Shown here one piece after another: positions 45,314 to 48,614 of a stretch of DNA of 64,000 nucleotides. A model generated the notes under the pieces. The model searched no databases. It was given only the letters and a program-made list of their open reading frames with translations, and had not been told where the DNA came from. Each line of letters opens with the position of its first letter. Within the stretch, counting starts at the first letter, position 1. Both the position numbers and the translations under genes were made by a program. Origin of the DNA: Yersinia proxima (GTDB taxonomy: Bacteria > Pseudomonadota > Gammaproteobacteria > Enterobacterales > Enterobacteriaceae); NCBI RefSeq assembly GCF_902170785.1, contig NZ_CABHYG010000016.1:62001-126000 (forward strand), in the 5' to 3' direction.

Positions 45314-45469
45314 ATGAAAATGACTATCGCAGCTCTAACCCTGATCGCAGCAATCCTGGCGCCAACTGTTTCAATGGCAAATATTGGTGACCATGACAGC
45401 TATCAAGGTACCTACTCTATCAGTCAGGGGCAAAGTACAAATACAGCGGGCCAGACTGCTAAAAACTAA
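45314..45469 (+). CDS. Small exported protein, 51 residues
   Basis: ATG 45314 with AAGAGAA upstream. It has a clear signal peptide (MKMTIAALTLIAAILAPTVS, cleavage after MA-) followed by a 28-residue polar mature part rich in Gln, Ser and Thr (GTYSISQGQSTNTAGQTAKN). A rho-independent terminator follows 11 bases after the stop, so it is a complete single-gene unit. No family recognised. Confidence 0.7.
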   Translation: MKMTIAALTLIAAILAPTVSMANIGDHDSYQGTYSISQGQSTNTAGQTAKN

Positions 45470-45507: not shown

Positions 45508-45904
45508 AATTATCAATACTTTCATCATCACCAAAGCCTGATACCCAATGTGACTTTTATTTAATTAAGCAACTATTGGTATCATTCAACAAACATATAA
45601 ACACCCTGCATTATTACTTACTCAGGAACGTTCTCTTCTTTTTAATTCTACGATAATTAGTTAAATCTTTAACTTAGTATCATCCATCTCATTTTGGTCC
45701 ATAATTATGTACACAAATTAACTCATCTAAATACAAAAAACTCATAATATTTTAAATTCTCTATTCTATTTATCCTTATAGGAAGATATTACAATCCAGT
45801 AATTTTTAATTGACGGTCATACATTTCGGCATAAAATCAACGCATAAAAATACTCACGTGACACAGAGTATTGATGAAAAACTACCTTTTATCAGGAGAT
45901 TTTA
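45508..45904. other. Very AT-rich gap upstream of the two-gene unknown operon
   Basis: About 400 bases with no usable frame. The stretch is much richer in A and T than the core genes of the window. It should carry the operon promoter. AGGAG at 45894-45898 is a strong ribosome binding site for the gene at 45905. No operator or repeat was seen. Confidence 0.5.
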
Positions 45905-46690
45905 ATGTTACAAGCAGTGCTTCACGGGAAAGCCGGCACCTTGCAAATCGCAGGCAAAGAGCTGGCAGTAAGTTGGCGATCCCTGTTTAAATCGAAAGAA
46001 GATTTACTTACGGCAAGTCTATTTACCCGTGTTAGCTACTTCCCTGAAGAATGGATGAAAATATTTTTCACATCTCTCTTTGGGCAGGAACTAGAGTTCG
46101 GCGTGTTAAAGAAACGTCATTTCTGGCCCCGTTTCCCCCTGGAACAGCAAACTGTAGAGCCAGACCTGGTATTCAGTTTTGAAAGTAAAGATATTTTGGT
46201 TGAAGTAAAACCTCCGGAAGGAGGCAAACAAAATTATATTCAGTGGCGCAAAGAGATAGACTCTTTTCTACAACAACGTGAAACAAAAACAGAGATTGAT
46301 AGAGAACTTATCTTTGTTGCGCTAGGAAATAACGCTACACATTATCAGCAATGGTCTGAAACACTTAAACTCAACCGAAACAATTTGAGCATTTATTGCC
46401 TTGAGTGGAAACAAGTGCAAAAAGCCATTATGGCCGTACAACTAGTCACTGGCTCAGATCCCCTACTCGACGACTGCCTGGCTGCACTAGCACTTTATGG
46501 CATTCTGCAACCAGTACCTCACTGGCAGCAACTACAACAATATGTACAGAGAGCCCCATTATCCAAAAAAATATTCAGCGACCTTTGCCCTCTTTCTTTA
46601 GTCAAAGAAATACCACTTGTTCCCCCAATATCTCACTGGCAATCACTGTCTGAATTGATATCAAACCAACCTCTACCAATTGATGAATAA
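45905..46690 (+). CDS. Unknown protein with a PD-(D/E)XK nuclease signature
   Basis: 261 residues from ATG 45905 behind AGGAGA. Residues 85-102 read EPDLVFSFESKDILVEVK: Pro86-Asp87, then Glu100-Val101-Lys102, the spacing of PD-(D/E)XK nucleases. Glu32 in the helix KSKEDLLTASLF could be the extra upstream acid. Q110-rich helix NYIQWRKEIDSFLQQ follows the core. The C-terminal 100 residues are helical and without a known domain. It is followed after 12 bases by a second unknown gene. A DNA-cutting or defence role is an inference; no close relative is recalled. Confidence 0.75.
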   Translation: MLQAVLHGKAGTLQIAGKELAVSWRSLFKSKEDLLTASLFTRVSYFPEEWMKIFFTSLFGQELEFGVLKKRHFWPRFPLEQQTVEPDLVFSFESKDILVEVKPPEGGKQNYIQWRKEIDSFLQQRETKTEIDRELIFVALGNNATHYQQWSETLKLNRNNLSIYCLEWKQVQKAIMAVQLVTGSDPLLDDCLAALALYGILQPVPHWQQLQQYVQRAPLSKKIFSDLCPLSLVKEIPLVPPISHWQSLSELISNQPLPIDE

Positions 46691-46702
46691 GCAGGAAAAA
46701 TA

Positions 46703-47317
46703 ATGTCACCGGAAGAAACATTGTCGCAAGTCAGGCAGGCTCATCGTATTTGTGCTGCTTTTTATCAACGAATGATGCCGCTTATCAATAATATTTCAGA
46801 AGAATTAGAACTGAACTTTGTTAGTTGGGCACCTCGTACATTTAATCGGCCAACTCGCAAAACAACTAATCCGCTTACATACTGGTCTTGGGATTATTTG
46901 CCATTAATTAGTGCTGGTTTTATTTTCTCCTCACAAGAGCAAGATGGAGAAATAAAACAAGGAGACTATATTTTAGATATTGAACTCGTTGCTGATGCGG
47001 AACTTGATTGTGCTAATATCAACAGGCTTTATGGCAAAACCCAACCGGATGCAACAAATTTACATATCAGTAGCCGTGAGTCGCACAGTTTTCTCAAAAT
47101 ATATCTATTCCACGCCAATACACCGTTATCTGGCAATGCCTTTGATACTATGTGGAAAGAATGTAACTATCCTGAGTTAAATGAAGTTATCCAAGCGGGA
47201 AACAAAAATGTCGATACTGTTGGTTTTATTCTTCCCATTGCAGAGATCATGAATGATGATGGTGTGACTCTTGCGGTAGATAGAATTAATCAGCACTTGG
47301 AACTAATGCAGAAGTAA
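46703..47317 (+). CDS. Unknown protein, partner of the nuclease-like gene
   Basis: 204 residues from ATG 46703 with AGGAAA upstream. No membrane segment, signal or known domain is seen. Notable features are an aromatic stretch (LTYWSWDYLPLISAGFIF) near residues 57-75 and an acidic strand-rich middle (GDYILDIELVADAELD). The 12-base gap to the preceding gene and shared direction point to one operon, so it may be a partner, regulator or immunity subunit. It ends before a long hairpin at 47341-47384. Confidence 0.7.
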   Translation: MSPEETLSQVRQAHRICAAFYQRMMPLINNISEELELNFVSWAPRTFNRPTRKTTNPLTYWSWDYLPLISAGFIFSSQEQDGEIKQGDYILDIELVADAELDCANINRLYGKTQPDATNLHISSRESHSFLKIYLFHANTPLSGNAFDTMWKECNYPELNEVIQAGNKNVDTVGFILPIAEIMNDDGVTLAVDRINQHLELMQK

Positions 47318-47340: not shown

Positions 47341-47384
47341 AGCGGCTTTCGAATTGCATCATCTATATGCATTCAAAAGCCGCT
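47341..47384. terminator. Long bidirectional hairpin
   Basis: Left arm AGCGGCTTTCGAATTGCAT (47341-47359), right arm ATGCATTCAAAAGCCGCT (47367-47384). Nearly all positions pair. It separates the unknown operon from the convergent roxA gene, 13 bases before the roxA stop. No strong T-run on either side. Confidence 0.65.
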
Positions 47385-47397
47385 ATTGATAGTACGA

Positions 47398-48519
47398 TTA
47401 CTCGTCAAAGAACCAATAACCCTGATTAATCAGGTCAGTTAACTCAGCGACAAATGCGGGGTTATCTAATGCCTCACCTAACTCTTTTTTACCAATCAAA
47501 GTGTATCGGCACAGTACATCAGCGGCTTTAGGGTCCACTGTATCCAGCCGTTCACTGTTGATAAAAAAGCTGTCTCCAACGTGTAAAACCCGCAACCCAC
47601 TCAGGCGAGCCAAGACTTCGCCATCCATTAGAGCCTCGACAATCTCCGCCGGTTCATAAGGTGGTTCCGCTGGAGCAATATCCAGCTCATGGCGTGGCGT
47701 CGTGGCAAAGCGACCAAACCATTGTTTAAAGTCTTCCGGCTGATTAATCATAGCGACCATCATCCCGCGCAAGCGATCGAGTTCATAATCTTCGACCCGG
47801 CCTGGATGCTCCCGACAGGTTAAATCTGGATCGCTGTAATGCTCACCACCAAGATCATTTTCCAACGCATAATCAGCAAAGCTACTGATTAAATCTCTGC
47901 CATTCGGCCCGCGAAAACCAACTGAGTAGTTGAATGCTGTTTCATGAGTAAACCCATCATGCGGGAAGCCCGGTGGGATATATAAAATATCGCCTGGAGC
48001 CAAATCTTCATCGATAATCGGTGTGAATGGCTCAACATGCAGCAGTGCTGGATGCGGGCAAAACTGTTTGAGTGGCAATTTATCGCCCACACGCCAACGA
48101 CGGCTACCCATGCCCTGAATAATAAAGACATCGTACTGATCGATATGCGGCCCAACACCACCGCCAGGGACAGAAAATGAGATCATCAGATCGTCTAAGC
48201 GCCAATCCGGTAACACCCGAAATGGGCGAACTAACTCAGCAGATGGCGCATGCCAATGGTTAACAGCTTGTGCCAACAGCGACCAGTTGGTTTCACCCAG
48301 ATTATCAAAGCTCTCAAATGGCCCATTACTCGCCTGCCACTCACCATTTATATGGCTGACCAAACGACTGTCTACTTCAGCCTCCATCGTCAAACCCGCC
48401 AATTCATCTGGCGTGATGGGATCAACAAAGTTTGGGAAAGCATTTTTTAATACAACAGGTTTTTTTTGCCAATATTTCTCTAAAAATTCGGGCCAATTAA
48501 GATTAAGTTGATAAGTCAT
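47398..48519 (-). CDS. roxA: Ribosomal protein L16 arginine hydroxylase RoxA (YcfD)
   Basis: Fe(II)/2-oxoglutarate oxygenase with a JmjC-type fold that hydroxylates Arg81 of ribosomal protein L16. It has 373 residues, as in E. coli. Start MTYQLNLNWPEFLEKYWQ at ATG 48519; an upstream in-frame start adds eight unconserved residues. Iron ligands are His and Asp in VGPHIDQYD and the distal His near PPGFPHDGF. The region NYSVGFRGPNGRDLIS is conserved. A winged-helix C-terminal domain follows. It is a core gene between the accessory block and the chemotaxis genes. Confidence 0.94.
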   Translation of the reverse strand: MTYQLNLNWPEFLEKYWQKKPVVLKNAFPNFVDPITPDELAGLTMEAEVDSRLVSHINGEWQASNGPFESFDNLGETNWSLLAQAVNHWHAPSAELVRPFRVLPDWRLDDLMISFSVPGGGVGPHIDQYDVFIIQGMGSRRWRVGDKLPLKQFCPHPALLHVEPFTPIIDEDLAPGDILYIPPGFPHDGFTHETAFNYSVGFRGPNGRDLISSFADYALENDLGGEHYSDPDLTCREHPGRVEDYELDRLRGMMVAMINQPEDFKQWFGRFATTPRHELDIAPAEPPYEPAEIVEALMDGEVLARLSGLRVLHVGDSFFINSERLDTVDPKAADVLCRYTLIGKKELGEALDNPAFVAELTDLINQGYWFFDE

Positions 48520-48614
48520 GCTTTCACACCAGTAAGAAGACAAACGGCCGTGATTATAAAGTGGCTAACACATGCCCTGCCTTGTCATTAGTCAATGACG
48601 TAGCTTGGTTAAGT

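Follow-up and report, generated by a model that had tools for sequence, protein, structure and literature searches.

A stretch of 64,000 nucleotides from Yersinia proxima (contig NZ_CABHYG010000016.1, positions 62,001 to 126,000; hereafter the window, in whose own coordinates all positions are given) carries two adjacent chromosomal genes on the forward strand, here called A and B. The stop codon of A lies at 46688-46690 and B starts at 46703, so that 12 bases separate them, and both are preceded by purine-rich ribosome sites, as a preliminary description of the window had read from the sequence and its open reading frames. That description knew of no system of this composition, a claim that has to be given up: in PADLOC-DB v2.0.0, A matches five models of PDC-M15A (best PDLC04459, E = 1.5e-75, residues 1-223 of 261) and B nine models of PDC-M15B (best PDLC04464, E = 3e-85, residues 1-203 of 204). 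With both genes matching and adjacent, the pair is a new member of PDC-M15, an already listed phage defence candidate (PDC) family, to which a probable nuclease core is assigned here. The gene order and adjacency are those of PDC-M15 and no structural difference was seen; the PADLOC library gives no mechanism. Between the window and the Yersinia artesiana copy, the ratio of nonsynonymous to synonymous substitution rates (dN/dS) amounts to 0.23 in gene A and 0.13 in gene B; both genes are therefore under purifying selection and maintained as proteins.

A search for the name PDC-M15 in a limited collection of papers gave no result. The PDC candidates reportedly originate from a preprint by Payne and colleagues. 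According to two sources, such candidates were found through "guilt-by-embedding", mostly without experimental validation (PMC10855318, PMC12988326). The latter describes activity for some Hma-embedded candidates (PMC12988326), and a third source states that native-host tests of PDC-M63AB and PDC-S04 gave no evidence of defence (PMC12409345).

Table 1 Features of the A-B locus (positions in the window)
Feature	Positions	Strand	Evidence
Gene A, PD-(D/E)XK-like nuclease, PDC-M15A, 261 aa	45905..46690	+	open reading frame; PDLC04459 match; conserved motif residues
Predicted catalytic motif of gene A, EPD (residues 85-87) to ExK (residues 100-102)	46157..46210	+	sequence, conservation
Gene B, partner protein, PDC-M15B, 204 aa	46703..47317	+	open reading frame; PDLC04464 match
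AT-rich leader of the A-B cassette, possible promoter	45510..45904	+	10/12 sigma-70-like match at 45810-45837
Inverted repeat 3' of B, most likely terminator of the convergent JmjC-like gene	47341..47384	.	folding; look-alikes in relatives without A-B

The predicted nuclease and its partner

The residues of A that had been singled out as a possible nuclease motif (EPD at 85-87, EVK at 100-102 and an upstream E32) are all present and conserved. E32, D33, E85, P86, D87 and K102 are invariant in the 16 homologues and E100 is kept in 15 of them, the single loss being a truncated copy; the D...(D/E)xK signature of the family is thus found in A, and at a mean column identity of 30% such invariance argues that the motif is not a chance occurrence. 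Structure prediction, proposed earlier as a check of the fold, gave a shallow model of A with a helix-strand-strand-strand-helix-strand order that fits PD-(D/E)XK weakly. The nearest folds, all of them weak matches, include EndoMS and the defence nucleases Shedu, Cap4 and Can2. A differs from the latter three by its pairing with B and by the lack of a match to CARF/SAVED or DUF4263 families (Pfam, PADLOC-DB). Searches of A in Pfam, NCBIfam and PHROGs gave nothing convincing (the best match, baeRF_family6 at 0.17, is below the cut-off), A and B found nothing below E 0.4 in the PDB by sequence, either as single proteins or as profiles, and when A was compared with known nucleases at the profile level, the D...ExK residues aligned but the similarity was not significant. 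Motif conservation and the weak fold match indicate that A very probably belongs to the PD-(D/E)XK nucleases, and its probable activity would be metal-dependent cutting of DNA. The low-confidence C-terminal tail of A contains a short internal repeat (46511-46641) encoding HWQQL and HWQSL.

The preliminary description had seen no known domain in B, which holds for Pfam, NCBIfam and PHROGs (nothing convincing; the best match, at 0.0033, is to a PHROG without known function) and fails for PADLOC, the only library in which B matches a family. The model of B is weak and consists of a long helix, five strands and a final helix; its matches, also weak, are to type III secretion chaperone and YbjN folds, which hints that B may have a fold of this kind. 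No match was found between B and the known nucleases with which A had been compared and, since the model is weak, the absence of B from other fold groups carries no evidence.

The association of both genes was studied in 16 loci with A (the window, L003, L004/L019, L006/L020, L007/L021, L009/L022, L010/L023, L011/L024, L012/L025, L013, L014, L015, L026, L027, L063 and L064), a set that is not wholly independent of the PADLOC library, as the first homologues were partly obtained with its own models. The A gene of L064 was missed in the profile pass over predicted open reading frames and recovered by tblastn. B follows A on the same strand in 14 of the 16 loci, also outside the genus (for instance on Vibrio rumoiensis plasmid 2), which is the co-occurrence that had been suggested as a test of the pair. 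With the start codons chosen here, A and B overlap or lie at most about 20 bases apart in 13 of these 14 pairs, the distance being about 70 bases in L064. The two exceptions to the pairing are L006/L020, where A is truncated and no B was recognised on the 3.9-kb contig, and L027, where the gene behind A is not recognisable as B. In the former (L020:1965-2327), the truncated A has lost the ExK glutamate and lies beside a nucleotidyltransferase/HEPN-like gene pair (labelled by eye) and an N-terminal fragment of HsdM; in the latter (L027:6082-6750), an unrelated 223-aa gene occupies the position of B, which was possibly replaced or is very diverged. L006 was excluded from the alignment (A5) and both L006/L020 and L027 from the comparison of divergences. 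In that comparison, the pairwise divergences of A and B are correlated (r = 0.89 over 14 pairs; r = 0.71 over 13 pairs when Y. artesiana is left out; 0 out of 20000 permutations for both values), values that still include the contribution of the shared host phylogeny. Adjacency, overlapping or nearly abutting genes and correlated divergence suggest that B is probably bound to A.

Genomic context and distribution

Six of the 14 intact pairs have type I restriction genes next to or around them. The arrangement is hsdM-hsdS-fic-A-B-hsdR (as annotated) on the V. rumoiensis plasmid (L013) and hsdM-hsdS-PDC-S15-PDC-S18-A-B-hsdR in L063; the latter operon (L063:4703-14518) lines up four candidate genes (PDC-S15, PDC-S18, PDC-M15A and PDC-M15B) between hsdS and hsdR. 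In the other cases, hsdR directly follows B (L022), a specificity gene precedes A (L019), hsdM and hsdR precede A (L026), or hsdR and hsdM lie upstream with PDC-S11 directly before A-B (L023), hsdS being named by position and not by scan in L023 and L026. PDC-S11 and PDC-S18 resemble A in standing in the same operons, directly beside the pair, and in having a D...ExK-like motif by eye, but they are single-gene candidates by name and show no significant profile similarity to A. The remaining eight intact pairs have no type I gene that could be recognised by annotation or by eye, the profile scan having covered only the seven neighbours in the window. Among these seven, no convincing PADLOC defence gene was found: the exporter matched mad3, mad8 and PDC-S06, a regulator matched a CARF3 model and a cold-shock protein matched CSD_V, but these hits were set aside, as they were taken to reflect shared common domains. 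The window copy was thus not found next to restriction genes and, in the host genome (G000, 23 contigs, completeness 100), no HSDR_N match was obtained by a search that was positive in nine of 14 control genomes and that did not include HsdM. The lack of an HsdR match in the host suggests that the pair is here probably independent of a type I restriction enzyme.

The preliminary description placed the genes in an accessory stretch, and this is upheld both by the neighbourhood and by the distribution. The pair is flanked by an ABC-exporter-like and a JmjC-like gene (labels by eye). The pair is missing from 20 orthologous loci of the genus. In 13 of them, the exporter and the JmjC-like gene are both present with no A-B between them; in the other seven, there was no exporter match within the fetched stretch. 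Three further genomes out of the 25 of the genus (L050-L052) only gave a distant match to JmjC-like DNA and their site was left out of the comparison. As the DNA of a small open reading frame (45314-45469, 51 aa) is retained in six of the 13 loci, we infer that the acquired stretch extends from about 45510 to about 47330; repeated loss would be a possible but less simple alternative. No repeats were found flanking the cassette.

A search of 60 genomes around the host found A in two, which are both among the 25 of the genus, and the only match of B in the host genome is the window copy. In broader genome draws, which overlap and include genomes already known as carriers, PDC-M15A matches 4 of 369 genomes from the class and PDC-M15B 5 of 295 from the order, the A profile was matched in 4 of 398 genomes from the phylum and in 2 of 293 genomes of another order, and the B profile in 2 of 289 genomes that belong to a different class of the phylum. 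A search of GTDB contigs with patterns that reach close relatives only gave one relative, that of Y. artesiana, from 51 candidate stretches, and E. coli genomes gave no match in a DNA search, which cannot see remote relatives. Both genes are present on 2 of 72,556 plasmid records, and neither was matched in phage records. Among viral contigs, A and its alignment found no match and the alignment of B led to one contig, whose own A found only itself when used as a query; two further A queries found none. On this contig, A-B lies on the strand opposite to the neighbouring terminase genes and no PHROG match was obtained for the two genes that flank it on the other side, an arrangement that suggests prophage cargo.

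Possible roles of the pair

Several scenarios may explain these observations. The one that we favor, with a probability of roughly 0.6, is that A-B is a horizontally acquired, stand-alone anti-phage module of the PDC-M15 family made up of a predicted nuclease and its partner. A would be the metal-dependent PD-(D/E)XK nuclease that cuts DNA, and B, produced from the same message, would bind it and, by analogy with other two-protein nuclease systems, either keep it off until infection or supply its target, the outcome being phage restriction or abortive infection. In the host, the module would act without a type I restriction enzyme, though its relatives are often beside or inside one. The earlier interpretation is supported in part: its proposal of a small defence, restriction or toxin-type module was reasonable and is now better supported. 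PDC-M15, which was catalogued but mechanistically blank, would gain a probable catalytic site and a model of two parts that can be tested. Since the pair stands apart from restriction operons here and its host gave no HsdR match, the system can be tested alone.

A two-gene unit of this sort has a precedent in TgvAB of Vibrio cholerae, which, according to its description, is a GmrSD-like system embedded in a type I operon in which both genes are needed and which is active without HsdR (PMC11411939). The likeness lies in a two-gene unit inside a type I restriction operon, as in some relatives of A-B; yet TgvAB is GmrSD-related, while the signature of A is that of PD-(D/E)XK, and Pfam, the only means by which a relationship was sought, gives no GmrSD family for either protein. 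By analogy, TgvAB may be regarded as the nearest working precedent that we met.

Alternatively, the pair could be a toxin-antitoxin system, in which A would be a DNase toxin and B its neutralizer, and whose main role would be the maintenance of an element instead of phage defence. Two small and tightly spaced genes found on plasmids, chromosomes and a viral contig, the resemblance of the weak B model to partner-binding chaperone folds and the correlated divergence of A and B would all be expected in that case. Nevertheless, 6 of 14 pairs stand beside or inside type I restriction operons, a position typical of defence candidates, no DNA-binding domain was found in B (Pfam, PADLOC-DB) and, at about 200 aa, B is large for an antitoxin. 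No toxin or antitoxin family was above the cut-off for A or B in Pfam or NCBIfam, although the search did not extend to a dedicated toxin-antitoxin database and would overlook a new kind. The toxin-antitoxin scenario is thus possible but rather unlikely. A more specific version of the favored anti-phage module would make PDC-M15 a new mechanistic type, in which the nuclease is held by a chaperone-fold B and released or aimed on infection; if this version were true, B would serve as a sensor-antitoxin with a fold that is not known to have an earlier link to phage defence. We regard this version as doubtful.

Still less probable is that A and B are accessory subunits of type I restriction enzymes that modulate HsdR or HsdM. 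The position of the pair between hsdS and hsdR in L013 and L063, and directly before hsdR in L022, would suit such subunits, but A has a nuclease motif of its own, no type I gene was recognised by annotation or by eye around the other eight intact pairs (with a profile scan of the seven window neighbours), and the HSDR_N search that was negative in the host points the same way, HsdM again lying outside its scope. Finally, a nuclease of DNA repair or recombination with its partner is the least credible explanation, as the patchy presence of the genes (2/25 genomes of the genus, 4/369 of the class and 4/398 of the phylum) and their mobile-element and restriction contexts do not fit a housekeeping function, even though PD-(D/E)XK nucleases include repair enzymes and EndoMS is among the weak fold matches of A.

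Signals and genes at the borders

The leader of the cassette contains seven promoter-like matches where 8.2 are expected from shuffles, so its sigma-70-like match is no evidence by itself. The hairpin said to close the unit is real, the 83 bases from 47318 that span the inverted repeat folding at -25 kcal/mol with none of 200 shuffles equally good, but it does not appear to be part of the pair: inverted repeats that resemble it by eye adjoin the JmjC-like gene in relatives without A-B, and it is therefore most likely the terminator of this neighbouring gene and lies outside the acquired unit. On the other border, the 51-aa open reading frame begins, by eye, like a signal peptide and is followed by a terminator-like site. 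The JmjC-like gene itself (47398-48543) has a second, roughly 70% DNA match elsewhere in many genomes of the genus, which suggests that two paralogues of it exist there.
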